DNA from: Xanthostigma xanthostigma
Taxonomy: Eukaryota > Arthropoda > Insecta > Raphidioptera > Raphidiidae
NCBI GenBank assembly: GCA_963575645.1
Contig: OY754466.1
Span: 13,246,001 to 13,310,000, forward strand
DNA length: 64,000 bases
Reading direction: 5' to 3'
Positions within the stretch are counted from its first letter, which is position 1. Every line of letters starts with the position of its first letter. Shown piece after piece: positions 34,626 through 62,585 of the stretch. Below the pieces are notes generated by a model, which had not been told where the DNA came from, made no database searches, and worked only from the letters and a program-made list of their open reading frames with translations. The position numbers and the translations under genes are program-made.

Positions 34626-34930
34626 TTAATTTAATTCGTCCCTAATACCTTCGGAATAAATAGCTGAAAGCTGTTGTTCTTGTAACTTTTTTTTGAGACA
34701 CTTCTGTTGCCTTTTTCTTATCTTCTCTTCATTGGAAGGATGGTTGTGAAGACCAGGTCGCATAAACACATTTCCTTCAGGAGTTGTCGAGCATATAATC
34801 CGACAACCTTGGACGTCCTTTTCCACACACGACCACAGTGTTTTGTTCTTCTGACGTTTATTGAGTCTAAACAGATGCTCCCCAATCACCAGCATGTGAT
34901 GTCCTCGCTGACTCTCTATGTAATATGCGT
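34626..34930 (-). CDS. mod(mdg4): Alternative 3' exon with FLYWCH finger (mod(mdg4)-like), F1
   Basis: Leftmost exon of the array. The acceptor (tttctag) precedes 34930; length 305 nt, needing one upstream base, so it reads (G)AC GCA TAT. The FLYWCH pattern is YYIESQRG, LVIGEHLFRLN, WSC, GCRIIC and LHNHPSN, giving a C2H2 zinc site (W-x-C, G-C-R, H-N-H). A basic, glutamine-rich tail with clusters such as KKKLQEQQ ends in RDELN. In mod(mdg4) such exons give each BTB isoform its own DNA- or partner-binding end; assignment to that gene rests on the array, not on a BTB exon, which is outside the window. Confidence 0.85.
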
Positions 34931-36384
34931 CTAGAAAGGAAAATCCATCATTTAATTGTTTCATCACACTTGGGAATTGTAATCGACGTAATTGTTATTT
35001 TTTTGTAACAGTTGTAACTGTTACTTAAAATAGCTAGTCTTCAAGAACTGGTAAAAGTTAAAAAATGATAAATTCAACTTTGAAAACATGAATCAGTACT
35101 AGGCCCGAACAACCCTGCCCGTTGGTGATTTTAAAAATGGTAACGGTTCCAAAATAGCTGAACTACTGGTAATTTGTCCGACATGTGCTTTAAGGATCAA
35201 TAGTAAGTAAACTAATTAATATGTTAGAAAGACAAAACATAATCTTACCGTTAAAATATTTTAATGTTTGACACATCGGATAGAGGAACTTTTTCTCATT
35301 TGGATTGAATTAAGTTTTGTACACAATTCATCTTTTAATTAATTTATTAGTAATATTTACACTACAAAATAAAACTAGAATAATAAAATTGTAATAAAAG
35401 CTTTAGAAAAATAAAACTAATTAGAATTGAGAGAACTTTAGATTATAGACGCTCAACAGCTCTTATTACAATTTATTAGAAAAGGAGCTAAATCAAGCAA
35501 AATAAACACAATTATAATTTATGATGATACAAATGGTTAATGCCAAATAGTCATCTGGTGCTTTCAACACGCTGGTTAATAATTAATCAGTATCATCATA
35601 CTTTTATCGAATAAATCATTTGGCTACTTCCCCGTGAAACATTTAATAAATTGAAAAATATATGCACTTTTCTTAAAACTTATGATTGATTGATTTTTTC
35701 TAATGAAAGATAAAAAAAAAACAATCTGCTCTGTGAAAATAAGACTGTTCACACAAGAAATTAAATACATGCTCAATATATTATATTCAAAGGATATTTT
35801 AACAATTTTAAAATTTAAAAACTCGGTAATTATAGCAAGTTGAATTACACTAATAAAATCACTAATAACACTCCTCTAACACATGTTAGATTAATAAAAT
35901 GATGAAACCAATAAATTAATAAGAATTCAGTTATTAAAGAAAATATATTTCAATTCAGCAATACAATCGATATGAATTATATCCTGTCTCTACACAGAAT
36001 GTCCGTGTGTCGCACCAACTACTACGTATCCGTTTTTTCAACCTTCACAATATCAAAACTCAGTTTATATAACATAAAGTATTATTTACAAAATTCATAG
36101 AACAATAATATAACACACTGAATAAAATTTGCTTACAAACATGAAAAGAAAAAAAGGCGTTACGATGTAAAGAAAGTTAGTTATTTATTTAAAAAATTGT
36201 GTTAATGAACAAATAAAGTTATTCGTACTTTGTGTATGACAATTATTATTTTTTTAGCAGTTAATTTGACCAGTCCAATTTCACATTATTTATTCATTGT
36301 GTTAATATTGAAAGTTGTACACCACAGTTCAGAAAAAGCTAAATTGTTGCTTCACAAATCAAGATGAATGAGAAGTGAGGTTGT
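34931..36384. other. Spacer F1-F2
   Basis: AT-rich with no supported exon. Confidence 0.4.
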
Positions 36385-36659
36385 CTACATGAGTCCTAAG
36401 ACTCCGCCTGGTCCGTTAAGCTTTCGAAACCGTTTTCTTTGCCTTGCTAGTATCTTTTCTCTATTAGACGGATGCGTGTGGTGACCTGGCCTGATTGTTA
36501 ACAGTCCATCCTTAGTCGTATAACATATCATCCTGCAGCCATCCTTCTTCTCAATGCAAGACCACTGGATCTTCGTTTTGTATCTATTGTTAGTGCGGTA
36601 CAGATGGTCGCCGATCACCAAAAGAGGATGTCCTCGTTGGCTCTCGATGAAGTACACTT
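36385..36659 (-). CDS. mod(mdg4): Alternative 3' exon with FLYWCH finger, F2
   Basis: The acceptor (ctgttgcag) precedes 36659; 275 nt in the shared phase ((G)AA GTG TAC). Motifs: VYFIESQRGHPLLVIGDHLY, WSC, GCRMICYT, and the last histidine pair as HHTHPSN, where the usual HNH reads HTH. The tail is short and basic (RQRKRFRKLN) and ends LGLM. It is close in sequence to F1, which suggests a local duplication. Confidence 0.85.
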
Positions 36660-37027
36660 CTGCAACAGAACAACTTATTTTAATAATAATACCGCCTGAA
36701 GCTTTGCAAATACTAAATACCCATGCAGTGACAACTGAGTACGATTGGACATCTATGTCAAGGCGTTTATTCTTATTTGTTGTCGTGACAACAGTATGTT
36801 TATGGACAATAAATAATTCAGCTAGTTATTATGTACTTAGTACTTACTTATGCTTTTTTATTATGTCATACAAAGATGTAAGTTTCATAGTGTTATTTAA
36901 GGTGTGTGGAATTAATAAGAGTTTTCATAAAATATTTAACATCTTTATTTGTTATATAATTATTTCATATATTATATCAACAGTTGATTGTTAAGACTTC
37001 GATTGTAGTCAATACAATAATAGCTTT

Positions 37028-37151
37028 GTTCACAGAAAATCCCAGATCATCAGCTAACTGACTACGCGTGCGCAATGCTTAAAACCATTCGAAGCGAGCA
37101 AAGCAAATGCGCATGCGTCGTCACTTTGCGGATGATTTGGGATCGTTGAGC
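37028..37151. repeat. Short imperfect inverted repeat
   Basis: ATCCCAGATCATCAGC near the left and GCGGATGATTTGGGATCG near the right, about 120 bp apart. Confidence 0.45.
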
Positions 37152-37393
37152 TATATATACAATACAATTTTATGAAGAAATAACCATCATTTGTTTAAAA
37201 TAAAGATAAATTCAAAATACAAAACTTACATGATCTATTATATTTGTCAACAATTTAGAAAAAATTACATTCTTACAATTTTTTCTAGGAAATGCACAAA
37301 TGATGAGATATATGTACATATATATAATAATTTGAATAAAATCATTTATTTTTAGGTCACTTTTCATTGAAGGATGAAACCTTTTCATTAGTT

Positions 37394-37680
37394 TCAAAAG
37401 CTGCCAGTGCGTAATATATTAGGATCTTTGACCAAAACCGTTCTCTTCTCCAGTAGTTTCTTAACAATCTTATCGTGATGATTGAGATGGTTGTGCATGC
37501 CCATGGATTCGGTAATCAGACCGCTATCTTTCATTGTGAACATCTTCTTTCGACACCTGGTAACATTGCGATCGGCGCAGACCCATTCCAATCGGTATTT
37601 TTGTTTGTTCTTCAGTCTGAACATGTTCTCTTGAATCACCAGAATCGGTGTCCCCGTCTGACTTTGGATGAAATAGTAAT
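37394..37680 (-). CDS. mod(mdg4): Alternative 3' exon with FLYWCH finger, F3
   Basis: The acceptor (tcaattgcag) precedes 37680; 287 nt in the shared phase ((G)AT TAC TAT). Motifs: YYFIQSQTGTPILVIQE, WVCADRNVTRC, MHNHLNHHDK. The gap between the two cysteines is slightly longer than in F2, and Lys replaces the usual Gly/Arg around the second Cys. The tail reads KKLLEKR and ends in RTGSF. Confidence 0.84.
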
Positions 37681-38454
37681 CTGCAATTGAAACGTTCGTT
37701 TGTTTTATGTCTTATCACCAAAACAAAAGATGAATGATGATGCGGGTAATAAATGAGCCATTTTTACACTGATTGTTACAATTTCATAATTTCTGACTTT
37801 CTTTGATAATTTGTTGAGAATAATAAAAGATATACACCTAGCACTAGTCACACCCGGAAAAAGCGTCAGAAACGATCGAGGCAAGAAAACAGTCGACTGT
37901 CGGATTCAAAAGATGGATATAAATATGTAGCTGAAAGTGACGTAGCGTTCAGATCCTAATCTATTCCTCCTAATAATAATTAAAACTTTGTTAACGACTA
38001 CATTTTCAATACCATTTTTTCTCATTGCGTACTACATAAATATTACGTAGGCTGATTAAATGTTTTTTTGTCTGTCTCAAATTTTTTTTCACAATTAAAA
38101 AAAAAGGTGGATAACAGAACATTTCTTCTTTGATATTTCCAGTTTCAATTGTGCTAGATACGTGCAAAAATTTGGGGTTCACAAGTGGTTCGTTACTATA
38201 CACAGAAGATGGTGGAATTAAGCTTTGGTCCTGTGGACACAGATGCCGCCTATATACGACTTTTCCTTATGGATTTTACATACCTGGTACATGGAATTAT
38301 TTCCTTGAAGCATAGGATTTTTTAAAAAAATAGGCTTATCCCCTACAGTCGTTGAGGATAAGAAAAAAAAATAGCAATTCATTTTATTATACTATTTAAT
38401 TTGAATAACATTTTTATACAAATCAAATAACAAAATAATATTTCATTCGTAAGC

Positions 38455-38759
38455 TTACGGGGAACACAAATTCTGTTTCCAAGTGCCCGTCATTAATACT
38501 TGGGTATTATAGCTGACTGCACATCCTCTTTCGCGCAACATCTTTTCAATCTTGTCATGGGGATGCGGGTGGTTATGTTGACCCAATTCCACAATTAAAT
38601 TTTTATCTCTATGAGCGCGAATCGACTTGCAACAGCCATTTTTGATCTTTTCGATACAAGCCCAGTGCACGCACCTCTTTAAGTAGTTATTGACACGAAA
38701 TATGTTGTTATCCATCACGCACCATGGTCTGCCCCACTTACTTTTGATAAAAAAGTAAC
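38455..38759 (-). CDS. mod(mdg4): Alternative 3' exon with FLYWCH finger, F4
   Basis: The acceptor (tttctttcgtag) precedes 38759; 305 nt in the shared phase ((G)GT TAC TTT). Motifs: YFFIKSKWGRPWCVMDNN, WACIEKIKNGC, QHNHPHPHDK. An extra cysteine pair sits around the second ligand (GCCKS). The spacer after HNH and MLRERGCAV resembles F3, so the two may be sister exons. The C terminus has further cysteines (NLCSP). Confidence 0.84.
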
Positions 38760-39663
38760 CTACGAAAGAAATACGCTCTGTAATATGAATCTCACCGCGT
38801 CCACAATCAGGTGATCAAAACAAAAACCAATCGGTCTATCATTAAAGAAGAAAAAACACTATCATAGAATAATATATCATTTATTTCTTTTAAATAAAAC
38901 TATGTATATGAACAATAATAATTACAATTACATTACTACATTTCTGAAATAGTAGAGAGTTATCATTATAGTACAATTCGCTTAACGGAGTAGCAAAGCA
39001 ATGAAACAATGTAAAAGCATACCTGTCCCATACATGAAAACTATGCTACCTATATTACACTGTGAAAGATACGTGTATGAATCACTTTCTACTATTTTTA
39101 TACCTTACTATTATAGTTGTGAACAGAAATTACTAAAAGTACAAAATAAATTATTGCTACAAATATAGTTTCAAAAATTCAATCTTGCGTCTATAATCTA
39201 CAAAATTCATATTCAAACATTCAACATCTGATTTAAAAATAAATACATTTTATATCTCGAAAAAAAGCAGTTTTCATATTTTGATTTAACTGGTTTCAAA
39301 TAAAACAAAAGAAAACCAAAACAAGTAGTGAGAATAAAAACAGAGTCGTACAACATGTTGTTCGCCAATATGTTAAAAATTAATCAAAAAAATAAACATA
39401 AAAACGATATAATATTTTATATATTTTTTTTGTTTGGGAAAAGTAAATATAATACTGTGAAATAGAACAAAATATATTAAGTTTTATTTTATATTTTCAA
39501 TTTATCATTTTTAATAATAATAAAATTGATACTTTCACCAGCTCTCAGAGATTATAATATGGAAGCTGCAGTTTTTAAAAATTTGATTTTGACTCCTCAC
39601 AATCAGCTGTTTCTTTACCCATGCGCACTCGACTTTTGTATCACTGACATTATTAAATTATAT

Positions 39664-39998
39664 CTAGATTGGAATTTTAGAGTGATGTGATATTAAAAAG
39701 GCCGATTTCCCTTCCACATCGTATACAGGACACTCATTCATTACTAAGTTACCGACTTCTATTCTAGGTCTCGCTTGAATCTTTTTTTTATTGCTCGGAT
39801 GATTGTGCAGTTGCCCGGGTCGCATTTTTATAACCCCGTTCTTGGTGATGCATTTAACGTTACAACCCGTCGACTTCTCTACGCAACACCAGAGCGTCGT
39901 TGGGCATTGGGCACTTCCGTACCGATTGTTCGCCATGAACAGCTGTTCGCCTAGCACTAGCATCGGGTTGCCTCGTTGACTCTTTATGAAATATACAT
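39664..39998 (-). CDS. mod(mdg4): Alternative 3' exon with FLYWCH finger, F5
   Basis: The acceptor (tttgttacag) precedes 39998; 335 nt in the shared phase ((G)AT GTA TAT). Motifs: VYFIKSQRGNPMLVLGEQLF, a loop lengthened by SAQCPTT, WCCVEKSTGC, LHNHPSNKKK. The tail is longer than in its neighbours, with an acidic-hydrophobic stretch (ECPVYDVEGKSAF) and end SKIPI. Confidence 0.85.
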
Positions 39999-41379
39999 CT
40001 GTAACAAATCAATCACATTGTTAGTCTCAAGGATCATTACATATACTAACAATTATCACACTGTAATTAAACAAAATAAAACTAACCTTCAATTTAACCG
40101 ATACAAATCGCTAATATACTGGTTCGTATTCAGAAAGATAAGCAATTAATTTGTAATCGAGAAATGTTTTCTTTTTGGAGGAACCTTACGAAACAACGAC
40201 CTTCCGGTTCCATAATGTTTTCCCTGGCTTTATAAGACTCCGGCCCACTAGGCATATTACACGATTGCCTGTTAGTCTTATCTAGATCTAGTTTTTGTAA
40301 CGGATGACTTTAGGAAAACGGTTGGTTTGAAATTGCGTTAGAAAAACAACGTTGAAACATAGCTTAAAAATTTATTAGTAGGTATTTTGTATTCATCTTA
40401 CAAATTATAATCTTTAAAAAATATATTTTTATTTACAAATTTTAAATTTCGTCAGGAATAAAATTGAAAGTTCAGCGACAGCCAGTCAAGCGCTTATTTG
40501 TGGTCAACAGAGGGCATTATTCAGTATTATCATAATTGATATAATAATTAAAAATTGATTAGAAAATCGTTTGGTTTCTGCGACACTAATTTCAAATAAG
40601 ATAACTTTTCTACGTTTTTTTATGACTAAATAAAACCATTCGTTAACCTCCAATAATGAAAAATAATTTCATACTTTCAAATCCTATTCAGTATATAACA
40701 ATAATACTGATCTACTTGTTTTGATATATAACTAAACTACGAGATCATCTCAAAATCGTCTCGGAAATTTGCAAACAGGCTCATTTGTTTTCAAAAACAA
40801 AAAACGCGCGTCGAACCTCAACTACTCTTCTGTTTATTGTTAAATGTATAAGAGAAATGTAAGTGATTTTTATAATGTCCAGCTGCCAATTATTCCTTAC
40901 AAATCTCTGGATCGACCTTCGATATGATTTATCCGTAAGTCACAGATCTGCTAATTCAATTTAATTTTAATATTTCAATAAGTTGGTCGAGCTTTAACAC
41001 CCCAATAAATCACATTTCGTTTATTTTTAATTGGATACAATTTTTCAACAAATAATTAATTCTTCAATTTATATATTAACCGCCACATTTACCGATTTAC
41101 AAAATCTTCAGATGTTTGAGTTTTCTAATGGTAATCGTGTATGAATTTAAAAATACATCTCGTCTATACTGTCGTCAAATTATAAATAAAATGTTAAAGA
41201 AATAAAACATTTATTGTGTAACGAAACTTAATATAGAATAATACAATTGAATATGCAACTTAAATGAGCTGCAGTTAACCAACCCTTACGGTAATTTATT
41301 CTTTCATTTGTACACGGTGAGTTTTTTTAATAAACATGGTAATATAATCTTTAATTTTTTATGAACAATTGAAAGGAAT
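39999..41379. other. Spacer F5-F6
   Basis: About 1.4 kb, no supported exon; AT-rich. Confidence 0.4.
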
Positions 41380-41642
41380 CTATAAGCTGTTGAAATCGAC
41401 ACAGATGACTTCGCTGTACTTGATTTTGTCGAGGTTCGGCGGATGGTTGTGTATTTGGCCGGGTCGCATAACGATGAAACCATTTTTGATCCGGCACATT
41501 ACGCGGCAACCGGACGCACTCTTACAGCAAATCCAGTTCGAGTTGTTGTAGCGGTTTTGCTGACACTTGACGAACACGTGATCCTGTAACACCAGCAGTG
41601 GCCTGTTCTTCTGCGACCTGATGAAGTAGTACGAGCTGCCGT
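41380..41642 (-). CDS. mod(mdg4): Alternative 3' exon with FLYWCH finger, F6
   Basis: The acceptor (gtgttttgcag) precedes 41642; 263 nt in the shared phase ((G)AC GGC AGC). Motifs: SYYFIRSQKNRPLLVLQDHV, WICCKSASGCRVMC, MRPGQIHNHPPN. The tail is short, ending in a hydrophobic CVDFNSL; a similar hydrophobic tail occurs in the decayed exon at 49219. Confidence 0.85.
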
Positions 41643-41837
41643 CTGCAAAACACAAAACGTTAAACTGCCAATCGGATCGTTCTAGATTATGTTTAAAAAA
41701 CAAACGCTATTTCATGTTTTCCCTTTATATTATAGTTGTAGACGGCAAACATCGGGTTTCGGTCGAATCGTGAAATTATAAACAAAATACAATGGTCCTT
41801 TGTCGTATAACGCGGTTCATTCAGCTAAAAATGGTCT

Positions 41838-42126
41838 GGACACACATAGCCAAACCGCGCCCAAAGCGTCACTCAGCCGAGTGACGTGTTGGACCTAGTG
41901 AGATCACACTTGTCCGCACCTGGTCTGGCTTGGCGTGGTCCTCAACCCGCTGGTTAGTATTCTTTTAGAAGATCTTTCTGAGACGGGCAAAATATGAACA
42001 AAACTATTCTCGCACGATGCGCACGCACGGACGCGGACGTGGACTATGGCATATGAATACACGGTACAATTCACCATTCAGACACGGCCGTACTATAGGA
42101 CGGACTTGGTGCGGTCATGTGTGTCC
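41838..42126. mobile_element. Inverted-repeat element between F6 and F7
   Basis: Ends GGACACACATAGCCAAACCG and GGTGCGGTCATGTGTGTCC are near-complements; about 290 bp, GC-richer than the surroundings. Confidence 0.65.
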
Positions 42127-42399
42127 CGAACTTAACACGGTTTATATTTTTTTTAATTTATTAGAGGCTGTCAACTCTGAGACTAATCTACTCAGTACCA
42201 ATTTGTATTTTCAAATTTTAATACTAAATTGAAAATCCAATAAATATCTTCAAGAGGTTTGCAACTGATTTGGCAGCATGTGACCACAGTGCATGACTCT
42301 TTAGGACACTTCAATTTCACTTATTACCAATGCAGTTTACTTGCTTAATGTGCAGTTTCATGTACAGTAAAATTGAAAATAAACAAGGAAATGGAAGAT

Positions 42400-42625
42400 T
42401 TTGTTTATCTCTGAGTTAGCTACTGGAGTGAAATAAGTACACCTATCATACTCTATTCTCAAGTCAATAGTTCCTACCTCTATTTTGTTGGTAGCCTTTT
42501 TCAGTGAGCAATTTAATTTCATTCTGTTAATTTTGATGTTACAGTGTGCGCGCGCATCATAAAAATTCACTCTCATCATTTTTTCATAGCGCGCCGAAAG
42601 AAGTACCTATAACTTCAACAATCAT
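42400..42625. repeat. Dispersed repeat, copy 2
   Basis: Similar to 31890-32125, with GTTACAGTGTGCGCGCGCAT and neighbouring blocks. Confidence 0.5.
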
Positions 42626-43578
42626 ACTCGTATGAATATTTCACGGGAGCTAGTCGAAAATACATGGGTCGAATTGGCTACCGCGCTGCAGCATTTAATT
42701 ATAGATTTTTTTCTGTTCATTTTAGCAAGTGACATTTTGTTCTTTATTACTCTCTGGTAAATGAAAGGTTGTCACATCTTTCTCGGTGATTTTTTATGAT
42801 GTAAAAAAACAGGTAATCTTTTGTATGTATAATAAATCGATAAATATGTTTAGATATCTTACTTTATTACACAAATAAATATAGTACAAATTTAAACTAT
42901 CAGCTAGTTATATATTATAATAAATTATTATTGTTAACAAAAATATCAATTGTAATGGTTGAATTTGATCTGATTCGGATCCCTTCTTTGACGAATTTAA
43001 ATCAATTTTACAAGCATTCGAATTGAACAGATTGCAGACATTTAGTTTTTATTAGTAATCAGTATGGCGTCCGCATGAGGATTACAGATGGATACTCGAC
43101 CTTTAAAAGAATTTTTTAAGAAGTCAAAGCATTAGATATCTTTATAAAAACAACATCCCAGTTGTTCCCCCATAAAAAATTCTACAGTTGTTCTCAGTGC
43201 AACTTTCAATTGGATCAAAAATAAATAAAAAAAGCCTACACACTTGAATAAATAAACGACTTCAACATTCAGCACAAATTCGCGATAATAACTTTCTGGT
43301 TTAAAAAACAAATGCAACCCAACAAGTAGCTGCTATGGTTACGCCAACAAAAGACTACTAGTTTTAACTAATTGCAACACAGAACGTTGCAAATGTATTT
43401 CGGTTTGCAATTTCTTTTAGCCCGAAGATAAACTTTTAATTACATATTAATCTTTCCAGATTAAATCATGTTTTTAAAATGTATTGTACAAGAAAATAAC
43501 GGCCTCGTTAAGATAAAAAATAGTACTTAAAATCTACGTTTGTAATATTATGAACTACTTCGATAAGCACCATATGCA

Positions 43579-43931
43579 TTAGGCGAAGTTTGATGAGGAA
43601 GAAGTAGCAGCCGCTGCGGCAGCAGCAGCGGCATTTAGATCGTATTCGTTGAGAAGGTCATTGAAGGTTATGTAAAGTGGTGTGCTCATGATGATCTTCT
43701 CGATATCGCTGCTATGGTTGTGGATTTGACCAGGCCGCATTAGCAAAGTACCATCTTTGTATGTACAGATTACCTTGCATCCGTGTGTCTCACGTTTACG
43801 ACATATCCAAAATATAGTGTTCTTGTAGCGCTTATTCATGCAGTAAACGTAGTGTCCTATGACCAACATTGGCCGTTTGCCAATACTCTTGATGAAGAAC
43901 ACTTTCTGCTGCGTTGACGTCGAACAGCCCC
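43579..43931 (-). CDS. mod(mdg4): Alternative 3' exon with FLYWCH finger and polyalanine tail, F7
   Basis: The acceptor (gcgatttgcag) precedes 43931; 353 nt, the longest exon of the array, in the shared phase. A short CSTSTQQ lead precedes VFFIKSIGKRPMLVIGHYVY, WICRKRETHGCKVIC and IHNHSSD. After TFNDLLNEYDLN the tail is a run of nine alanines, then TSSSSNFA. The alanine run uses mixed GCx codons, so it is not a simple trinucleotide slip. Confidence 0.85.
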
Positions 43932-44100
43932 CTGCAAATCGCAATTCAAATGGTCATTCAGGCTCCAAAGCTCGTTGAGTATGAAAAAAATCAACATTTT
44001 TGAGAATTCTAATTTATTTTTTGATTATTTTACGAACACAACTGACAGAGTTACCTAAGCCTAGTATCAGAACGTGTAGTTTTTTTTAAGATGACAGCCC

Positions 44101-45529: not shown

Positions 45530-45834
45530 TCATCTGGATAGCGCCGTTAGAGGTGGCAGTTGTCGGCAGGCCACAAAACGGTTCAATTGTTCGGTAGTTT
45601 TAATTGGAAAGGCACCACCACCGATGCGGTTGGGCGGATGATTATGTGGCTTGGTCGGCTGCTTCAGGAGCGTCTCCCCAAACGTGATACAAGTAGTACG
45701 GCAGTGGAGCGATACTTTGCTCTTGCAACACCAGGCTATTTTACCGTCGTATTTCTTGTTCACTTGGAATTCGTAGCCATCGATCACCAGAATCGGGTTG
45801 CCTTTAAATCGTTCGATTAACATCGGCGACAAAC
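45530..45834 (-). CDS. mod(mdg4): Alternative 3' exon with FLYWCH finger, F8
   Basis: The acceptor (atttccgttgcag) precedes 45834; 305 nt in the shared phase ((G)GT TTG TCG). Motifs: MLIERFKGNPILVIDGYEFQ, WCCKSKVSLHCRTTC, PHNHPPN. It is diverged: the aromatic pair before the S-x-x-G element is lost (LIERFKG). The tail LPPLTALSR is proline/leucine-rich. Confidence 0.82.
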
Positions 45835-48720: not shown

Positions 48721-48983
48721 CTATTTGACCCTATTGAGAACAGTGACTCTATCGATACTCTTTCTATCGACCAACTCAAAGTCCGGTTGATGGTTGTGTC
48801 CTTCGATGATGACGACATTCCTCTGCGAGGTGACAAGACTGCCGCGACAGCCTTGTTTGCTGACCTTGTACAAGGCGCAGCGCCAGAACGTCTTCTGGGC
48901 GATGGCGCGTTCCCTGTTGTATATGTAGTCAGACACTATGATCTGCACGTTGCCGCGTAGACTCGTCGTATATCTGATCAGTT
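48721..48983 (-). CDS. mod(mdg4): Alternative 3' exon with FLYWCH finger, F9
   Basis: The acceptor (ccttttttcacag) precedes 48983; 263 nt in the shared phase ((G)AA CTG ATC). Motifs: IRYTTSLRGNVQIIVSDYIY, FWRCALYKVSKQGCRG, IIEGHNHQPDF. It belongs to a more divergent subgroup with F11, with an arginine-rich first half and no basic tail; it ends VTVLNRVK. Confidence 0.82.
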
Positions 48984-49680: not shown

Positions 49681-50006
49681 TTAAATCTCGCCAAGTGACA
49701 AATCATTCGCTGCCGACAGTTTCGCTTCTCTCTTTAACTCAAGCATTTCCGCAAACGAATAGATTTCATTCTTAGACATTGCTACGGATATGCGTGCCAT
49801 CTGATTAGGGTGATTATGATCCAACTTATACGAATGAACGCGATCGTCTACTGTTACGATTTTACTTGAACAACCGTCTTTGAATTTGTTGCAGCGATAA
49901 CGTCGCATCTCGCCGGTTCTGTAGTAAATTGAAAATAGGTTTTCGTCCCATACAAGCAGGAATTTGTCACTCGTAAAGCGCCAATAAGTTGGTATCCACG
50001 CCGATT
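49681..50006 (-). CDS. mod(mdg4): Alternative 3' exon with FLYWCH finger, F11
   Basis: The rightmost FLYWCH exon. The acceptor (aacccttttacag) precedes 50006; 326 nt in the shared phase ((G)AA TCG GCG). Motifs: TYWRFTSDKFLLVWDENLFS, RYRCNKFKDGCSSKI, YKLDHNHPNQ. The tail forms a probable short helix (AEMLELKREAKLSAAND). As the exon nearest to the presumed common donor it would be the first met by a transcript coming from the right. Confidence 0.84.
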
Positions 50007-53326: not shown

Positions 53327-53780
53327 AATTAGGCTTTTGAAAAAAAAATAATTATCGATTTTTTTATTGTATTTTAAAACTTTATTATAAATAATATTGA
53401 TAATCGATGCGAAAAACTTTCAAAAAACTTTTTTTAAATCAATTATAAGCAATTTAAAATTGATAAAATATTAAAAAAAATCACGTGACTGCAAACGCAC
53501 TAAAATTGTTTTTGACAGTTGTGACGTCATAATGGTAAAATGTATATACGCAGTATACTATCAATGGCTTCTACATGTGTATTGACTAAAACATTATGAC
53601 GTCACATTATGTTCGGGAAATGTCGGCGCGTTCTCGGAACTGGGTACAAAAATTTATTTTTAATTTGATATAACTTTTGAATTATAACGAAAATAAAAAA
53701 AAGAAAAATAGTTTTGTTATAAAACTTATATACGATCTTTCCATTTATGACAAAAAAAAAATTCATTCAAAAGCCCAATT
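53327..53780 (+). mobile_element. AATTAGGCTTTTGAA element, copy 3
   Basis: About 454 bp, same ends and interior as the two copies in ANAPC1. Confidence 0.85.
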
Positions 53781-54503
53781 ATGACAATAAACATGAACTT
53801 CGTATTTCTTTTTTTTACTTCGGATTGGAGTAAACGGTGCTCCAGGCAGTCTCGCCAATTTATCGCCCCGGCTCTTCACTAACAACTACATGATAAATAA
53901 CGTAATCGTTGAAACATTTAATATTAATATTCATTCAGAAAAAAAAATGAAAAGAAAAAAGTTTAATCGATCGAAATATTTCCAAGACAGGAATATGAAT
54001 TTAAAAAGATTTCGGTGATTTAGTTTAACCTACGCTACTGTGCACGCGCTAAATTTTTTGTAAACAAATGCAACTAAGTGCCGTAATAAAAAAGACATAA
54101 TATCACTATTCTTTTTCCCCCCAATTTATTGTGCGTATAATACGATAATAAATTCTTCGTCCATTGCTAAGAATACATTTCGAAATGATTTAAAACAGAT
54201 AGACATTAATGCCCTCAGCTACCGAGCGTCTATAATTTTCACCTTTTCTTAAAACAGATGTCGAAAATTCAACTGGGTTTCAGAAGGTTAGTTTTAATTT
54301 TGAAAGAAAACATTGACCACGTTTAAAAAACCAAATGACTCGACTAGTGAATTAATGATACTAAGCTAGGATAAGAAATCGACTGGTGATTTTTTTCTAA
54401 ATAACATTTTATTAAAAAAGTAAACAATATTACGTAATAAAAATACAATATATTATGTAATGTTCATTTCATCGGGGGCCGATACTTTGGCGGGACTGCG
54501 AGC

Positions 54504-54682
54504 TCAATGCATCCGTGCCGCGTGGTACTCCTGGAAGCACCTCTTTATATGAAGTGGGTTTCCGCACGAAGCACACATGTAGCGAGTCTCCCTGCGACCG
54601 GGACAGTTTCTGCACACGCGGGCTGGATACTTTTTTTTGGGCGTCGGTGGAATTCGAATTGGGTAGTGCGATTCGAATAAAG
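54504..54682 (-). CDS. Isolated piggyBac C-terminal cysteine-rich domain exon, P1
   Basis: A 59-codon exon (179 nt) with an acceptor (tatcggatgtag) before 54682, read (G)CT TTA TTC in the same phase as the FLYWCH exons. After ESHYPIRIPPTPKKKYPARV comes the cross-brace zinc pattern CRNC-x8-CASC-x9-CFQEYH, then a stop after ARMH. In piggyBac transposases this domain is the C-terminal end that binds the transposon ends. No transposase core was seen within 2.4 kb upstream; the nearest is the ORF at 57115. The exon is in a different frame from the long ORF that overlaps it. Confidence 0.75.
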
Positions 54683-57114
54683 CTACATCCGATAAACAAT
54701 CAGTTAAATTCCATTTTCATACAGACTCTACAAGTAACAATCTATGATCGACATTCAATTATTGATTCTCCCGGTCTACACTTTTTATTCCGCTGTACCT
54801 TTAGCTTTTCTTCTACTAGCCACAAAAAATCTAAGCTGTAACATTTTCAACACGATATTTTAAATATGCCTTTTAAAATTCGATTTTTAACCTTTTACGC
54901 AAAAAAGAGGGGTGTTATAAATTTGCAGCCTTTGTCTGTCTTTGGCACCATAGCTCCGAAACGGATGATCCGATTTTAATACGTTCTTTTTTTTTGTGTG
55001 AAAGCATACGATTGCGAGATAGCTTAGTTTCAAAAAAGGTCCAAAATAAATTGAAATAGGTACGAAAATTATTTAATTTGAAAAATTACTGACGCGTACG
55101 CAAACCAAACGTACACCGACAGACGGTGAATTGCCTGTCTCATAGTCAATTTAATTTAATGTTTCATCGATTCTTACATTCTATTCCATAATGCCGTAAA
55201 AACAATTGAAATTGGAGTTTTCATTTATTCACACTTAACATTTTAATACAATTATTTTGTTTTGTCAGAGCCAAATGTGCAAAACAATTGTTATAAAAGT
55301 TCATACATGTAAATAAATTAAAACGCTGTTCTTTATTAACGTAACGGCCGATTCGATTATTGTATTATGTCCATAATATTGTCTCGACAACGATATAATC
55401 CTTATAATAGTTATTGGCGTAACTAGTAGTCTAAGTCATTCATGGCGTGTCAGCGTGGCGCTGACAGGTCATGACTTAGCCTACAAGTTGCGCCCATAAT
55501 TTTATTCAACAATTGCGCGTTATTCATGTTTTAATTATAATGTTATGTTGTAAATATCTATTTATTTCTTTATAAAAAAAACTGTCAATACTAACAGCAC
55601 CAAACAGCACGATTCAATGTTTTGGTTTGCAGTTAGCCGGTTATGAATAAACTCCATGTCGAAAACATTTGGCCTCTCAATTTTAGTCTCAATGGGTAAC
55701 AACGGAGTTGTTGTTACCTACTATTTCGTTACGACTCAGAAAATAGTTACGTTTATTTTCATTTCTCCACAATGGCCGAGCTAGTAGGAATCTTCATTGA
55801 GTTATGACAAGTAATTGTCACCAGTCGGTAAATGGCTATTTAGGGTTCGGTTTTTAGGCATGATAAAACATGAATAACGCGCATGAGTTAAATAAAAGAT
55901 ATAACTTCGTCCTGAGAATAAAAAACTTATATAGGTTACCGTTTTTCTTATTTATCAGGTTGCGTTAGCGACAAACGTTTACAATTTATATTCGCTAGAT
56001 GGCGCTAGTGGCAAGGAAGGTATACCACAAGCGTTTAGATATTGACTAAGGTATTACTATACTAATATTTTAGTCAATGGTTTTTATCCATTAGTAAAAA
56101 TAATTAATTAAACAAGTGCAAAAAGCGATAATGTAGAAAAACCATTTATATAATAAGTATATATCAAGCGTTGTCTATTTACTCAATGTGCGGTGAGCGA
56201 AGGCAACAAAGCGTATCGAAAATATAACTGGGTCTCTTTTTTTGAAGTAATTCCTTGGTTATTCCGACAATGTATGAGCATGGAGTATATCTCTCTTTAT
56301 CAAAAATTTTGCCTTTATCTATGGCGTTAGCCAATCAAAACAAACGAGCTCTTACGACAAAAAAAAAGATAGAAATACGTTCTGCACCCTAATAGTTCGA
56401 TTGCGATTTTATCCCTATGCTCGGTGACATATATAAAAGTATATGAGAAAAACAGTACTGACATTTGGATGACAAATACTTCACTGGCTAGTGGCGCCAT
56501 CAGGTGGCCGAAAATATAAGCAGTACTAACAATAGAATGACACATACTTTACTTGCCAGTGGCGATATCGGGTGACAGAAAAAAGTTTTGTAAACCTACT
56601 GAACTTGCAGAGCTAAATAATATTTCATAAAGATTTACGCCTAAAATCCAACGAGAGCTAAGTAATTGCAACGTATTACTTTTGTTTTCATTATCTTTAT
56701 GTTTACATTTCTTCCGTCTTAGATTAGATTGTAGATTATACACGGTTAACATCTAAGGTTATCAGCGTCTATTTTATCTTCTACAAAATCTACATTTGAT
56801 ACGTTCTATTTTTTCCAGCACTCAAAACAAAAAACATCCTATTCCACTAATTTTAAATGACGCTATAATAATTACATCACTAATAAGCCACGCCCACACG
56901 TTTCACTTAGGTGTACTTATTAAAAAACAAATATTTACGCAACATTCATTTTCTTAAAATCTATATTGCGATTATGTACACTATATACGACCATGATCGG
57001 AAAAAACAAAATTCTCGATAAATTTAACACCTCAGTAAGTTGAACAGTGTTCGTTTGTACCGTAGACGCCTCACACAAGTGTCACTATACATGGAACTTT
57101 TTAAATTTTCACAT
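54683..57114. other. Non-coding stretch with small repeats
   Basis: No exon recognised. It includes a hairpin at about 55428-55490 (arms GTCTAAGTCATTCATG and its near-complement), an insect-repeat-like stretch at 54890-55140 and two tandem copies of an about 80-bp unit at 56455-56585 (both with CAGTGGCGMYATC-type motifs). Confidence 0.5.
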
Positions 57115-58755
57115 TTAATAACTGTCTTCAAAACAGTCACTGCAAAGACACGTGACATGTTCCAAGCACAAGAACCTGCCACATCGTTTACAAAAGTATC
57201 TTGTCCGTCTGTTCTGACTCGACTTGCAGAACTGACAGCGACCTCTCTTATCGGCTCTAGTTTCGACGGGCCGTTGTTCCGCTTCCATACCGCAGATTTC
57301 TCTGATCCTATTTCGGACCGTTCTCGGCAAGGGCACCCCACACTCCTTAGACAGAGCGCGTATTCTTAGGTGATCGTTGATCAGCTCGAAAGCCAGTCGA
57401 CGTAAAAAGTCCCTGTACGCGAATCGTTGTCCACCATCGGCGATTTCACCGCAAACGATCCACGCGTTTGCAGCCGCCGCATTCATTACAGCGCAAAGCG
57501 CTATATTCGGTCGATTGCGGCGGCATCCGACGCCCGTCGCGTCGCAGGCATAGCGCAATTGTAGCGCTCTGACGGCGTCGACTTTACTCAACGACTTGTC
57601 ATAGAATGTAACAATTGCGGGCCGGCTGTTGTCTGGATCCGTGGCGTTGTCGTGATGCTTAGTCGAAATAAAGAGAGCGTTTTTTCTCTTCTTCGCCATG
57701 TACGACACGAGAGTACAATTCTCCTGGAATCCAAACATGCTAGACTTAACGCTACGGTTGATGAGGCTGACGAAATCGATGGGTAGCTCGGAGTTATGTT
57801 TATGAACAGCCGCGACTACAGTTAACCCGCGTTTGTCCAACAATTTGTTCGCCACTTCAACGACGTTCGGTAACCGCGCGTTTACAATTACGTTTCTTCC
57901 AGAGTTGTAGATCGGTGCGCAAAGTCGATCAATGACTGCTTCCGGCCGATCTGTACATCCTTTCAAATCTACTTTCAGATTGTACGTAAAACCAGTTTGC
58001 GCATCGGTCAAAAAATACATTTGGACGCTGTGTTTGAGACCTTCTTTTGTCTCAGACTGAAGAAAGTTAGTTTTTCCCCTGAAAATTTCAACTTTCTCAT
58101 CGAAGACCAAGTTTTCGGACACGCTGTAACAATCTATACAATTGCTGACGAAAGCATTGTAAGTGTTCTTTATATGCGCCAGCTCTTCCTTTGTTTCAGC
58201 GTCGTTGCAGCTTAAACATTTCATAAGTAAGCGGAATCGAGGCGCTGACATTGTCAAGCGAAACATTTCAATTCCCATACCGTCTGGTTTCCACAGTTCC
58301 CTCGTGGTGTGATGGCTAGCCCTGTAAATCCCCGACAAATAAAGCAAACCGAATAACGCATAAAGTTCCCCTTTGTCGGTAGGTTTTACATCCTTGTCGT
58401 TTACGTATTTTTCAGATACCATTTTCATACATTTGTTTGCGTGTTCCACTAAAGAATTTATCATCGCATCGTCGAAAAAACATTTCCAAATTTCTAAAGG
58501 AGTACAACGATCTTTCAAGTGCGATTTAACACCCGCCACGCAAGTGACTGGATGTTCTGTTTTTTTTACCGGGCCGCATTTATTCCATATGGTTTTCATA
58601 TCTCTTCCGATAAAGTACGGGCCGCTGCTACTTTCAAATATTTCTTGATCACTGTCACTTGTTTCTTGTTCGCTGTCGTCTATTCGTTTGATCGCAAAAT
58701 CATCATAAATATCTTCGTCGTCGTCAGAATCAAGATTTTCTTCGAAATGTTCCAT
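57115..58755 (-). CDS. piggyBac-type transposase-derived protein, probably catalytically dead
   Basis: Intronless, 546 residues from the Met at 58755; the ORF is open 25 codons further upstream. It has an acidic N terminus (DSDDDEDIYDD), a DDE_Tnp_1_7-like core and a C-terminal cysteine-rich domain from residue 507 (CQFC, CKRC, LCLEH, CSDCF). Of the piggyBac catalytic aspartates, the first is in VFDEKVEIFRG (D219), but the second motif reads VNARLPNVVEVANKLL (about 291-306) with no Asp where families carry a D-N-x-F/W block. The third site VDAVRAL keeps D393 but has Arg where a further Asp is usual. The gene lacks obvious flanking inverted repeats with TTAA. An intact frame with lost catalysis suggests domestication; recent inactivation is the alternative. 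Confidence 0.8.
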   Translation of the reverse strand: MEHFEENLDSDDDEDIYDDFAIKRIDDSEQETSDSDQEIFESSSGPYFIGRDMKTIWNKCGPVKKTEHPVTCVAGVKSHLKDRCTPLEIWKCFFDDAMINSLVEHANKCMKMVSEKYVNDKDVKPTDKGELYALFGLLYLSGIYRASHHTTRELWKPDGMGIEMFRLTMSAPRFRLLMKCLSCNDAETKEELAHIKNTYNAFVSNCIDCYSVSENLVFDEKVEIFRGKTNFLQSETKEGLKHSVQMYFLTDAQTGFTYNLKVDLKGCTDRPEAVIDRLCAPIYNSGRNVIVNARLPNVVEVANKLLDKRGLTVVAAVHKHNSELPIDFVSLINRSVKSSMFGFQENCTLVSYMAKKRKNALFISTKHHDNATDPDNSRPAIVTFYDKSLSKVDAVRALQLRYACDATGVGCRRNRPNIALCAVMNAAAANAWIVCGEIADGGQRFAYRDFLRRLAFELINDHLRIRALSKECGVPLPRTVRNRIREICGMEAEQRPVETRADKRGRCQFCKSSQNRRTRYFCKRCGRFLCLEHVTCLCSDCFEDSY

Positions 58756-61249
58756 TTTTAATTGAATTATTGCGATTTCTAAAAAAATTTTGGCGCATAA
58801 ATATACGTGCACAAAATCGAATTTCAACATTTGTACACAAACAAAAGAGTAACTGTATCAAACAAGTGACATTCACCTGAACATATCTTTAATAATCACA
58901 GTTCTCGTTCGTTTCAAGTTTAAAAACAGCCGGCACGCGAATCCACGGCATTTTTTTGTTTCCAACCACTAGTTTTTTGATTTTACTTATTCAGTTTTTT
59001 GCAATAAATTCAATTGAAAGAAAAGGCGATCAGATTTCGAGATAAAGTTTATAAAAACGCAAGGTCTGATTAAATTACTTTTTATTATAACACGTGAAAA
59101 GATTCTAATCGAAGATTTGTCAATGTAGGTCGAAAATAAAATACTTCCAAAATTCATTGTTTAATGGTTTGTTATGTTATAAAATTTTCCGAAATTTAAT
59201 TCTTGTTTAAAAAATCATTGTTCACAAGTAATGGATGTTTTAAATTTACATATAGGTACCTATTTCTTAATTTTTCGTCGCTGCATCTTTTCAACAGATT
59301 TAAAAAAAAGAGGCTATCAATTCGATATGTATATTTTTTTTAAATGTTTGTTCAGCCATAACTTTTCAAGGAGTTAACTGATTGAATAAATTTCGACGCT
59401 ATTTTGTTCACAAATTGGTTCCACAAAATTTTATTTTAATTAGTTCAGTCGTTTTTAATTGACTTAAAAAAAGGAGTTTTTTTAAACAGTAGAAAAGCTT
59501 AGTCATTTGTCTGGGCGCTTTTCAAGAGCCTTAAAAATAGATTTCTTATCGCGGACAAAATCCGCAACAACAAGCATCATAAATTTAAAAGCATCACACG
59601 CAATCGCAATCGTAGCTTCAGTTTCGAAACTAATCAGAATTACTTTGGTCCAATTTTTTCGCGTTGAAATTTTATTTAAGTCTCTACTGTTGCTATAAGA
59701 GTGCACAAAAATACCGTCCACATTTTGAAATCACTATATACACGATTACCAACATAAAAAAAAAAAACAAAACACAAACTAAACACTGCACTGACAGGAT
59801 TTCTACAAACAGATGATGACTTTCTGTCTCAAAAGTCGCATCTCTTTGTTTTTTTTTTTTTGACTTTGAGGTTAAGCGGATCTCCTAAAACACTCGAGAG
59901 CTCCGTCTTCACTTTGTCCCGATTAAGTATCGAATCACGTTCAACGGTAACAGATGACCGCAGGTCTTCGAACGAAATAACAACTGATCGTTGTAACAAC
60001 TAACCGTTATCAAAAACAAATCAACCGTTTTGAAGGCATTCGGTGTTTCCAAATTGCCGCTACATCTTTATAACGGACGTTGCACGGAGGGCACACAGTA
60101 AAAACAACAGTTGTAATAATTGTCACCATTGGAACCCAGCATTGCACAACATGGAAGGGCGGCGCGCCGGAGGCACCGTAACGCCGTCGGCGCGTCGAGC
60201 GACGCACCCAACGAGGTGATATTTATACTGGTCCTAACCTAAAAACCAGCATCTCAAATTGTTAGATGCTTTCCAGCGTGTTAGGGTTAACGACTATTCC
60301 CAAAATAAACCTACAAAATTAATTTTACTACATACAAGTGAAAAAAATGGAGATACTAATTTTTAGATTAGGACGGCAGTATAATGAATTACTGTTTCCA
60401 TTTTTTAGAATTAGAAAAGTTGTTGAAAACAATTTGTTGTTGCAGAAGTTCAAATCGAAACAACTGCATATTGACAAAAACATGAAACGTTGTGTGCGTC
60501 ACTGAATATTGAATAATATTAAAAAAATATATATGTACAGATATTATGAAATACAATGTTATATATGCTAGAAATTTAAAGTATATTATATAATACGGGA
60601 ATGGTAAGTGGGCAAAAAACAGAAAATAATGTCAAAATTTGTACATTTAAACATATTTTTTATATACATACCATATAAATAACATTTTCTTTAAAATTTG
60701 AAAATACAAAAATATACTCTTTCTAACTAAATTAATTATTATATAACTCTTTTTATTTTTAAGTTATCTGTAACGGTTAAGGATCCCATTTATTCGATTT
60801 TCCAACGACAGCTTTCGATTTTATGAACTCAATTCAAACTGAACTATTAGTATTGCCAACAACCGTTTTTAGAACTGTCAGAACCAGTTCAGAACTACTA
60901 ATGTCCTGAAGAAGCAAACAAATTGTGCAACGTGAACGTAGATTATAAGAAAACACTGTAGTTTAGTATTATTGTTTTAACTTTAGAGAAGACACTACCA
61001 AGATGGCCAATCTACGCAGTAGGAGTAGTGGAGATAGCTTAGTCTTACCAGTGGTGGAATTTGGACTCGTCCTGCATAAAATATATGGTTGTCTTTCATG
61101 CGTCAACCCTTTAAATACGCTAGGAAAGTATCTTTTGACACGCGATCTTTGCGCCCTCTCGTGTCTTTTTTTTTTAAATTCTGGTTCAGTCAAAACCTTA
61201 GTGTCATATGTTATACGTGCATTTTAATAAGAATTAATTGTTGAATAAA
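58756..61249. other. Non-coding stretch
   Basis: About 2.5 kb. No complete exon supported. A 72-codon ORF on the minus strand at 59503-59721 (VLISFETEATIAIACD, ending RPDK) has coding-like composition but no recognised family and no acceptor in the shared phase. A half C2H2-like motif is listed separately at 60010-60207. Confidence 0.4.
60010..60207 (-). other. ORF with a C2H2-like half finger
   Basis: The ORF reads VCPPCNVRYKDVAAIWKHR. Its spacing C-x2-C-x3-Y-x5-I-x2-H matches the first part of a C2H2 finger as in lola-type alternative exons, but the second His is absent and no in-phase acceptor was found (an in-frame TAA lies just upstream). It may be a decayed exon or chance. Confidence 0.25.
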
Positions 61250-61880
61250 ATGGGAAAAAAGCTATCAAATCGGAAGTGCTGTGTTGTTGATTGTAAAGAT
61301 ACACCAACTAAAAATCCAGAATTACAATTCCACCATTTTCCTGGATTTTCTTATGAATTAGAGAGGAAAAAAAAATTGATTGCATTGGTACGTCGTCAAG
61401 GGTAATTAAATTTTATTTTACGTCTGTAATAATTATTAAATACATGAAAAATATTATAATTGTTATTTTGTTAACAAAAATAAGATTTAAGAACTGTTGA
61501 AATAAAAACTGTATATCATTTATGTAGTTTTTTACTGATATAGAGCGTAATTTTTTTATGGTTAAGAATAAAGCTGGTTTCCATGTGTTTGTAAGTTTTG
61601 GGTGAACCAGATTTTAAAAAATCAAACACGAGATGGCGCAAAGAACGCATGTCAAAGATACTTTCCTAGCGTATAGAATATAGACTCTACCGGGCATAAA
61701 CCTCATTTGTGCGCATGTATGACGCTGGTGTCTTCTCTAAAAAATCATTGTCATTGTCTGAATTCTGCGAATCTTATCTCCTAGTGCATTTATAAATTAC
61801 TTTGTTTTTGTTTAGATGAGGATATACTTTTTTTTCTCTCCCACATTAACTGTCACGGTTAAGAAATAAATGGGATCCCT
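60771..61880. mobile_element. Nested inverted repeats around the THAP exon
   Basis: Three sets of inverted pairs are centred on about 61300. The inner pair starts TACGCTAGGAAAGTATCTTT (61118 onward) and its complement ends at about 61674, with over 60 bp of arm similarity. The middle pair is TTTAGAGAAGACAC at about 60983 and its complement at 61729-61742. The outer pair is GGATCCCATTTATT at about 60782 and its complement at 61862-61876. No 8-bp target duplication was found at the inner ends; a TA is possible. Confidence 0.5.
61250..61401 (+). CDS. THAP-type zinc-finger first exon
   Basis: From ATG 61250 the frame gives RKCCVVDCKDTPTKN, LQFHHFPGF and LIALVRRQ, then GGTAATT, a usable donor (stop TAA overlaps it if unspliced). 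C-x-x-x-C followed by FHxFP is the start of the C2CH THAP DNA-binding domain; the later Cys and His would be in the next exon, not identified here. Exon 1 ending after the R-x-G position is common in THAP genes. Inverted repeats surround it (61119-61674 and wider), so it may belong to a P-like or other THAP-bearing transposon rather than a host gene. Confidence 0.65.
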
Positions 61881-61922
61881 AGTAACCGAGAATGCTCTAT
61901 CATTTCTGTTCGCTTGTCGATT

Positions 61923-62185
61923 TTAAGAGACCGTATTATCGTTCTGATGATATTTTTGGAAACACATCAAACAAAACGCCTTTCTGCACACGCAACACTG
62001 CGTCGCCACCTGTTTGGCCCATTTGGTAGCGCTCTGGGTATTCATTCCTTGTTTAATTCCTCGATAACAACCTATGCACCGCTTTCTAACCATTCTACCG
62101 TTATCTTTCCTCGGTATCTGTTGTAAAAAGTGACGTTCCGAAGCGCCGTCGGTCGCCGACTGCCACTGCAGTGACGCGCCGACAC
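61923..62185 (-). CDS. Isolated piggyBac C-terminal cysteine-rich domain exon, P2
   Basis: 263 nt (2 + 87 codons) with a strong acceptor (ttttggcttttag) before 62185, shared phase ((G)GT GTC GGC). It reads GASLQWQSATDGASERHFLQ, the strand leading to the CRD, then KRCIGC, a longer loop with ATQCCVC, FCLMCFQKYHQ and a stop after DNTVS. The SERHFL-x-x-IP element is the typical lead-in of piggyBac CRDs. The spacer between the first and second Cys pair is enlarged compared with P1. Confidence 0.72.
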
Positions 62186-62385
62186 CTAAAAGCCAAAAGG
62201 AGGCCTCGTAAGCGATATTCAACAATTTTAAGTTTTTCTGAAATACGAATGTCTCCGCTAGGCCATTTCAAACAAAATAACATTTAAAACTTGTTTGTCT
62301 CTTACGTTCTTTTGACATTTAAGCGGATTTCTTTCTTTAGTGTGATTTTAATTCGCAAAGCACGCACTCGTCGCCTTGTATGGCA

Positions 62386-62585
62386 TCAATTTAGCTTCAT
62401 CGCATGGAACAGCTGGAAGCAAGGCGCAACGCATAGCGTGACGTCACATCCATTGCAGTAAAATCGCGACTCTTTCCTGACACCTCTGTTGGTACAAAGA
62501 ACACACCGCCTCGTTGGAAATTTCTTTTTCTCCGTTGCTTCGATTCGTTTAGGAAAGCACGCCGCCGCAATTGCCAGTTCAATCC
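62386..62585 (-). CDS. Isolated piggyBac C-terminal cysteine-rich domain exon, P3
   Basis: 200 nt (2 + 66 codons); acceptor (gtttacttgacag) before 62585, shared phase ((G)GG ATT GAA). Lead-in ACFPKRIEATEKKKFPTR, then RRCVLC, RFYCNGC, LCVAPCFQLFH and stop after KLN: a complete CRD. It lies only 200 bp upstream (on the minus strand) of P2, with no transposase core near either; the next upstream sequence to 63665 shows none. Confidence 0.72.

Follow-up and report, generated by a model that had tools for sequence, protein, structure and literature searches.

The DNA analysed here most probably belongs to a mod(mdg4)-like gene, in which a BTB exon and a linker exon would be spliced to a single terminal exon chosen from a set of at least 14. 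FLYWCH zinc fingers are encoded by ten of these endings, and the remaining four correspond to the C-terminal cysteine-rich domain (CRD) of piggyBac-type transposases, so that the predicted products would include BTB-CRD proteins of 328–371 residues. In such proteins the BTB module would multimerise, and the CRD would bind DNA or chromatin, perhaps still the ends of piggyBac elements. The CRDs themselves may stem from more than one capture of piggyBac elements, and the acceptor site of at least one exon, C66, would lie within the transposase sequence so acquired. The window, to which the plain positions below refer, is the whole stretch of 64,000 nucleotides; the features are compiled in Table 1.

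Table 1. Terminal exons, linker end and piggyBac-derived reading frame of the BTB locus
Feature	Position	Strand	Remarks
Linker exon end	C3:13313629	(-)	best donor
C66, CRD terminal exon outside the window	L009:2382-2075 (C3:13312382)	(-)	phase 1; zf-Tnp_2 over cut-off
C626, piggyBac-type CRD terminal exon	62386..62585 (C3:13308585)	(-)	top acceptor of 5 AGs, phase 1
C622, divergent CRD-like terminal exon	61923..62185 (C3:13308185)	(-)	top acceptor of 11 AGs, phase 1
piggyBac-derived ORF	57118..58857	(-)	DDE_Tnp_1_7 E 1.9e-41
C54, piggyBac-type CRD terminal exon	54504..54682 (C3:13300682)	(-)	best of 3 AGs, phase 1, weak acceptor
FLYWCH terminal exon 10	49681..50006	(-)	phase-1 best acceptor, open join
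FLYWCH terminal exon 9	48721..48983	(-)	phase-1 best acceptor, open join
FLYWCH terminal exon 8	45530..45834	(-)	phase-1 best acceptor, open join
FLYWCH terminal exon 7	43579..43931	(-)	phase-1 best acceptor, open join
FLYWCH terminal exon 6	41380..41642	(-)	phase-1 best acceptor, open join
FLYWCH terminal exon 5	39664..39998	(-)	phase-1 best acceptor, open join
FLYWCH terminal exon 4	38455..38759	(-)	just below Pfam cut-off; phase-1 best acceptor
FLYWCH terminal exon 3	37394..37680	(-)	phase-1 best acceptor, open join
FLYWCH terminal exon 2	36385..36659	(-)	phase-1 best acceptor, open join
FLYWCH terminal exon 1	34626..34930	(-)	phase-1 best acceptor, open join

Architecture of the locus

A first-pass annotation of the window had described ten FLYWCH and three CRD exons on the same strand, and this inventory is borne out, with nine of the ten minus-strand FLYWCH ORFs exceeding the Pfam cut-off and the tenth (38458-38757; E 9.3e-5) reaching 23.0 bits against a cut-off of 23.6. 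The common 5' exons, expected there to encode a BTB domain and a Gln-rich segment, were located in part: a BTB exon and a linker exon are found on the same strand, the minus strand, 3.6–6.9 kb past the high end of the window, while the Gln-rich exon was not found, the linker looking Ser/Thr-rich and acidic. The BTB exon matches Pfam BTB with an E of 9.5e-28 and is 62% identical to the fly Mod(mdg4) BTB sequence used as query; judged by its N-terminal motif, it is presumably of the TTK type. The best donor of the linker, CAAG/GTCAGT, leaves one base and is thus in phase 1, and scores 4.6 in the splice-site model, as against -2.4 for the next best GT nearby.

Along the minus strand the order is BTB, linker, three CRD exons, the piggyBac-derived ORF, one further CRD exon and the ten FLYWCH exons. 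The CRD exon absent from the first-pass annotation, C66, lies beyond the window directly after the linker; on the minus strand no exon was found closer upstream of C66 than this linker, 1.2 kb away, and all four CRD exons fall inside 12 kb of a single strand. The join from the linker to the terminal exon is open in 14 of 14 cases, and the lengths of 2 modulo 3 given earlier for the terminal exons hold for all 14, C66 included, as follows from phase 1. Since all exons lie on one strand, cis-splicing would be sufficient. Taken with the BTB exon and the linker, the phase-1 donor supports at the DNA level the earlier proposal that CRDs were recruited into the same exon choice. All 14 exons are followed within 600 nt by poly(A)-signal words, which in such A+T-rich DNA are not used as evidence. 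In the same genome a multi-copy FLYWCH element is also present, and a MULE transposase adjoins the copy that was scanned.

The CRD exons

A clear sequence match to piggyBac-type CRDs is seen in three of the four exons, namely C626, C66 and C54. C626 is above the Pfam cut-off for zf-Tnp_2 (E 1.1e-6) and matches piggyBat at E 5.2e-5, C66 is 62% identical to piggyBat, and C54, below the zf-Tnp_2 cut-off (E 0.0024), matches piggyBat at E 4.1e-6. C622 gave no Pfam match to zf-Tnp_2, only IBR below the cut-off, and on its own no match to piggyBac in the PDB; among 8719 ORFs it was picked out, at E 7e-4, by a profile made from the other CRDs, whose C..C/C..C/CF..YH pattern it shares, with the six Cys/His positions kept. 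It is weakly recognisable as a CRD, and the assignment is uncertain. In leave-one-out profile searches the other three were recovered at E 8.5e-18 (C626), 2.5e-16 (C54) and 1.5e-15 (C66), and the profile of all four matches piggyBat at E 7e-23, with C66 contributing. The positions C,C,C,C,C,H, which we take to be zinc ligands, are invariant in 4/4, at an identity to C626 of 21–42%.

The exons differ in how well domain and splice site go together. C626 and C66 are clear CRDs with fair to good acceptors, C622 combines a good acceptor with a weak CRD, and C54 is a clear CRD with a weak acceptor, an equally good one being present in 69.5% of control ORFs. It is accordingly possible, if clearly less probable than the full set of endings, that only some of the CRD exons are functional, most likely C626 and C66, and that the others are decaying; this reading overlaps with the main one, and that all four frames are open with the ligand positions intact argues against it.

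Splice phase and possible transposon relics

A single fixed splice-site model places the best acceptor in phase 1 for 10/10 FLYWCH and 4/4 CRD exons, and the acceptors that the first-pass annotation had picked for its three CRD exons also received the highest score among the AGs scanned, each in phase 1. Among control ORFs, scanned over their first 96 nt (12–282 nt in the exons), phase 1 was best in 203 of 610. By chance the CRD match would be expected about once in 81, provided that the CRDs are independent; the model, built on background splice-site frequencies, was drawn up once the CRD sites had been inspected by eye. The FLYWCH exons, and perhaps the CRD exons too, are duplicates of one another, so their phases are not independent.

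The phase match would be luck if the CRD stretches were unspliced piggyBac relics in the large intron between linker and FLYWCH exons, which we consider unlikely. The genome is indeed rich in piggyBac sequence, with 69 matches to the local piggyBac-derived ORF (itself included), 36 of them on C10. The piggyBat homology of C66 extends upstream of the predicted acceptor, so a truncated transposon relic with a surviving frame is possible for this exon, and the weak acceptor of C54 would likewise be accounted for. Of eight CRDs examined elsewhere in the genome, six have transposase core pieces beside them and two, which belong to a single repeated type on C10, do not. Beside the CRDs of the BTB locus, on the other hand, core remnants were found in 0/4 with three piggyBac queries, none of piggyBat type, over 144 kb; core remnants of the piggyBat lineage could have escaped this search. 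Relics would also have to explain four CRD-only pieces within so short a distance on the strand of the gene, with frames and zinc-ligand positions intact and phase 1 throughout. Moreover, a genome-wide search with C626, C54 and C66 found no close copies of these three, the next best place reaching 54% for C626 and 47–49% for C54.

The piggyBac-derived ORF

The reading frame among the CRD exons matches piggyBac 6x67 (E 2.5e-40) and lacks a complete catalytic triad, as an Asn takes the place of the second catalytic Asp in the alignment with piggyBac. Its next best match in the genome is at 33%, and there are no near-identical copies. As to flanking terminal inverted repeats, inverted pairs of at least 20 nt number 13 between 50 and 64 kb, none of them close around the ORF, which is spanned by two pairs, both imperfect, whose arms are 7.4 and 9.9 kb apart. 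The ORF possesses an ATG, a terminal CRD and a stop of its own; with this CRD left out of the CRD profiles, 4/5 runs listed it, at E 0.04–3.9. The ORF is probably its own gene. It is not claimed as a further alternative ending, given its ATG and a best acceptor in phase 2, its phase-1 acceptor scoring lower.

That the CRD exons form a separate gene within the BTB locus, such as a domesticated piggyBac gene, is very improbable: such an ORF does lie among them, one that has no close copies and in which a catalytic Asp is replaced, yet it is complete with CRD and stop, belongs to another lineage and is situated downstream of C66, C626 and C622, and C66 follows directly on the linker of the BTB gene. 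The CRD exons as endings of the ORF were rejected on the same order and lineage. The case named earlier as refuting, CRDs joined to a piggyBac core, finds no cis candidate for these three CRDs: the sole core detected in 144 kb with the three piggyBac queries is this downstream ORF.

Other BTB loci and the origin of the CRDs

A second BTB-FLYWCH locus is present at C3:29.148-29.201 Mb, with BTB pieces of 68% and 61% identity to the same fly Mod(mdg4) BTB query and a phase-1 best acceptor in 4/4 FLYWCH exons; because of it, orthology with mod(mdg4) is not fixed by the BTB domain alone. CRD exons in this second locus were ruled out, as no match was obtained there at E<0.3. On C4, one CRD-like frame lies 11 kb downstream of a BTB domain. 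Its direct joining to the third BTB exon on C4 was rejected, the donor being in phase 0 and the best acceptor in phase 2; a join would require that the second exon, in phase 2, be spliced past the third, or that additional exons lie in the unread 10 kb. On C11, a LOLA-like BTB domain is followed, 540 kb downstream, by a CRD frame whose best acceptor is in phase 1. The pattern may reach three BTB neighbourhoods, C3 with four CRDs, C4 and C11.

Sequence relationships suggest that the CRDs were captured repeatedly, since C66 shows 62% identity to piggyBat and the closest sequences to C626 and C54 (49% and 46%, respectively) are those of transposons in this genome. The CRD tree leaves the grouping weak: no branch is well supported, the branches are long, and the four CRDs of the locus are grouped in 0/200 bootstrap trees.

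Relation to known systems

FLYWCH alternative exons are the hallmark of mod(mdg4), for which trans-splicing is known in Drosophila and the silkworm. Trans-splicing of separately transcribed 3' exons of mod(mdg4) is a feature of Diptera and Lepidoptera; in the present locus all exons found are on one strand. According to the available text of PMC4667647, mod(mdg4) of Drosophila, mosquitoes and Lepidoptera likewise combines common BTB exons with many alternative 3' exons, mostly FLYWCH (26/31 isoforms in D. melanogaster, 37/40 in D. plexippus), and cis-spliced homologues occur in Tribolium, Apis, Camponotus and Daphnia. A transposase CRD is not named in that text among the endings without FLYWCH, and no word in it begins with 'transpos'. 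Judged by titles and abstract openings, a full-text literature search returned nothing about BTB-piggyBac CRD endings.

In CSB-PGBD3, PGBD3 serves as an alternative 3' terminal exon and comprises the whole transposase, whereas the locus described here would have taken up the CRD only, several times, and within an existing exon menu. The likeness lies in the fusion of a host gene with a coding unit of piggyBac origin, as described in the portion of PMC12062965 available. The same portion describes a BTB protein with a mobile-element zinc domain, 97.6% in Chordata, which resembles the predicted BTB-CRD proteins but has an integrase domain N-terminal to the BTB and C-terminal zinc-finger arrays. 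Host regulators among the transposon-derived transcription factors likewise use transposase DNA-binding domains, and FLYWCH is described as derived from Mutator transposase (PMC10027918); the available text of that source does not contain 'piggybac', and capture in the present locus would apparently have proceeded by terminal exons added at a shared donor.

A broader and distinctly tentative reading is that such BTB loci act as standing traps for the DNA-binding ends of transposases. The shared donor would let a captured 3' fragment with an in-phase acceptor become a terminal exon; CRDs from different piggyBac families would have been gathered repeatedly, as FLYWCH would have been earlier from MULE elements, and the BTB-CRD factors may recognise and silence the transposons of their origin. 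As this genome has a multi-copy FLYWCH element and many piggyBac matches, it allows a direct comparison of captured exons with their possible donors. Should the joins be real, a known exon-choice locus has gained a second, unrelated transposase DNA-binding module, apparently repeatedly, and would illustrate how transposases can be captured in portions, as alternative terminal exons, instead of through fusion of whole genes. It is then a testable idea that the BTB-CRD proteins regulate, in a sequence-specific manner, piggyBac elements or host sites that arose from these.

Architecture of the locus

Three questions were addressed for the window (C3:13246001-13310000, from an assembly of 623 Mb in 28 contigs): the existence of the thirteen terminal exons, the possibility that their common phase is luck, and the presence of a BTB gene upstream. 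The minus strand of the window carries ten FLYWCH ORFs, nine of which pass the Pfam cut-off, the tenth falling slightly short (23.0 vs 23.6 bits); with the exons at 62585, 62185 and 54682, which encode the C-terminal cysteine-rich domain (CRD) of piggyBac-type transposases, all thirteen terminal exons claimed in the first-pass annotation are present, and that observation is confirmed. The three CRD exons are unequal in quality. The exon at 62585 (CRD626) passes zf-Tnp_2 (Pfam), and the exon at 54682 (CRD54) fails this cut-off and matches the CRD of the piggyBat transposase (E 4e-6); the exon at 62185 (CRD622) by itself matched neither, and is recognised only through its Cys/His pattern and a profile built from the remaining CRDs (E 7e-4 in the leave-one-out search of 8719 ORFs). 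Six Cys/His positions are kept across the CRDs despite 21-42% overall identity to CRD626.

The 5' part was sought in the next 80 kb beyond the window, whose numbering is continued here. The common upstream exons that had been predicted, BTB and a linker of matching phase, were both found on the minus strand, the donor of the linker scoring 4.6 against -2.4 for the runner-up GT nearby. Furthermore, a fourth CRD exon (CRD66), which the earlier interpretation had not predicted, has the top acceptor score (5.1) among the four CRDs. The order along the locus is BTB, linker, CRD66, CRD626, CRD622, a piggyBac-derived ORF, CRD54 and FLYWCH 10 to 1. Past the FLYWCH cluster, a Cdc73-type frame occupies 30933-31505.

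Features of the locus and of related neighbourhoods (window numbering unless a contig is named)
Feature	Position	Strand	Remarks
BTB exon, coding part	70887 to 70528	minus	donor ACG/GTACGT, phase 0
Linker exon	68076-67629	minus	acceptor phase 0; donor CAAG/GTCAGT, phase 1
Fourth CRD exon (CRD66)	66382-66075 (L009:2382-2075)	minus	acceptor phase 1; zf-Tnp_2 over cut-off
piggyBac-derived ORF	57118-58857	minus	no close copies; next best genome match 33%
CRD frame on C11	C11:4196945-4197247 (within C11:4196943-4197250, L036:1444-1751)	BTB's strand	best acceptor phase 1
CRD-like frame on C4	C4:51234181-51234480 (L039:182-481)	BTB's strand	11 kb downstream of split BTB (L040, L041)
Second BTB-FLYWCH locus	C3:29148048-29201102 (L018-L024)	plus	BTB divided between two exons; four FLYWCH exons

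Phase of the terminal exons

Each AG between the opening stop and the conserved core of an ORF was scored with one fixed generic splice model, written after the CRD sites had been viewed by eye. The top-scoring AG is in phase 1 in 10/10 FLYWCH exons and in 4/4 CRD exons; among other ORFs of the region, scanned over their first 96 nt, this holds for 203 of 610. The first-pass annotation had worried about its own choice of acceptors, and its three CRD sites prove to be the best-scoring AGs, in phase 1. The FLYWCH exons of the second BTB-FLYWCH locus are likewise in phase 1; a CRD was sought there and none was found at E<0.3. Since the FLYWCH exons are mutual duplicates, their agreement does not represent ten independent events, and the CRD exons may be non-independent through duplication as well. 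BTB and linker joined to each exon remain open in 14/14 cases (328-386 residues, CRD forms 328-371), which says little beyond phase.

The exception to the phase rule is the piggyBac-derived ORF inside the locus: its best acceptor is in phase 2, and a start of its own is probable. Among PDB entries, the transposase of 6x67 matches it best, with the CRD part of the match, and 5lme, a piggyBac CRD, matches as well. Asn stands where the second catalytic Asp aligns, and the ORF looks domesticated.

Exons or relics of insertions

piggyBac matches are common in this genome (the local ORF has 69, counting itself), and it must therefore be considered that the CRD stretches are relics of piggyBac insertions rather than exons. 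The homology of CRD66 to piggyBat extends upstream of its acceptor (alignment from piggyBat residue 454), so that a larger transposase piece entered, with the acceptor within it; moreover, CRD frames lacking a core are known elsewhere in the genome. On the other hand, no core was found beside any of the four CRDs in 144 kb around the locus, with three piggyBac proteins of this genome, none piggyBat-type, as queries, whereas core pieces adjoin six of eight comparison CRDs from seven loci on C10 and C13 (L029, L030, L031 second, L032, L033 and L035), the remaining two (L034 and L031 first) being near copies of each other. CRD66, CRD54 and CRD626 have no close copies in the genome (next best 47%, 49% and 54%, respectively), and the Cys/His positions are intact in spite of the low overall identity. 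As a separate observation, C10 holds 36 of the 69 matches, 34 of them within 8.9-16.4 Mb, and is possibly a transposon-rich or special chromosome.

Origin of the CRD and FLYWCH modules

CRD66 shares 62% identity with piggyBat and at most 40% with the other CRDs of the locus, while the nearest relatives of CRD626 and CRD54 are a transposon CRD on C10 (49%) and another transposon CRD (46%). These sequence comparisons favour several captures from different piggyBac families. A single capture with later divergence may also account for them, because no branch of the CRD tree is well supported and the branches are long.

The FLYWCH domain is described as transposon-derived (PMC10027918). An identical 65-residue stretch of a FLYWCH unit occurs in six fetched loci (L001-L006) on four chromosomes, and in L002 the adjacent ORF that was scanned encodes a MULE transposase; these units may be related to the elements that donated the FLYWCH module. 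A repeat with several open frames on the minus strand lies at window 32675-33120, and its unit is found again at L002:1-792, next to the MULE copy, the two sharing 118 exact 20-mers.

Other BTB neighbourhoods

In two other neighbourhoods, a small part of each having been read, a CRD frame is located downstream of a BTB exon and shares its strand. The frame on C11 (zf-Tnp_2 under cut-off, E 0.016) is without close copy, its nearest relatives being CRD54 and CRD66, and lies 540 kb downstream of a LOLA-like BTB (L037); it is possibly a distant or trans-spliced ending. The frame on C4 (zf-Tnp_2 under cut-off, E 0.0026) gave no piggyBac match in the PDB and is matched by piggyBac proteins of this genome (E 4e-8). 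Its direct join to BTB is rejected for mismatched phases; a skipped or unseen exon would be needed. Since more short CRD frames exist, e.g. on C10, C13 and C6, both are leads only.

Proposed working of the locus

Because the predicted BTB and linker phase were found, together with one unpredicted CRD, a mod(mdg4)-like exon choice that includes CRD endings is supported at the DNA level. One phase-1 donor, common to all, would be joinable to many acceptors. TTK-type BTB domains, including those of Mod(mdg4) and LOLA, are reported to form high-order multimers and to cross-interact in Drosophila (PMC11426971); an important role in contacting transposon DNA is ascribed to the piggyBac CRD, although its necessity is disputed, and one domesticated CRD is described as lacking DNA binding (PMC9499001). 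From BTB multimerisation combined with CRD-DNA interaction, it can be rationalized that the BTB-CRD proteins may be multivalent regulators binding DNA or chromatin.
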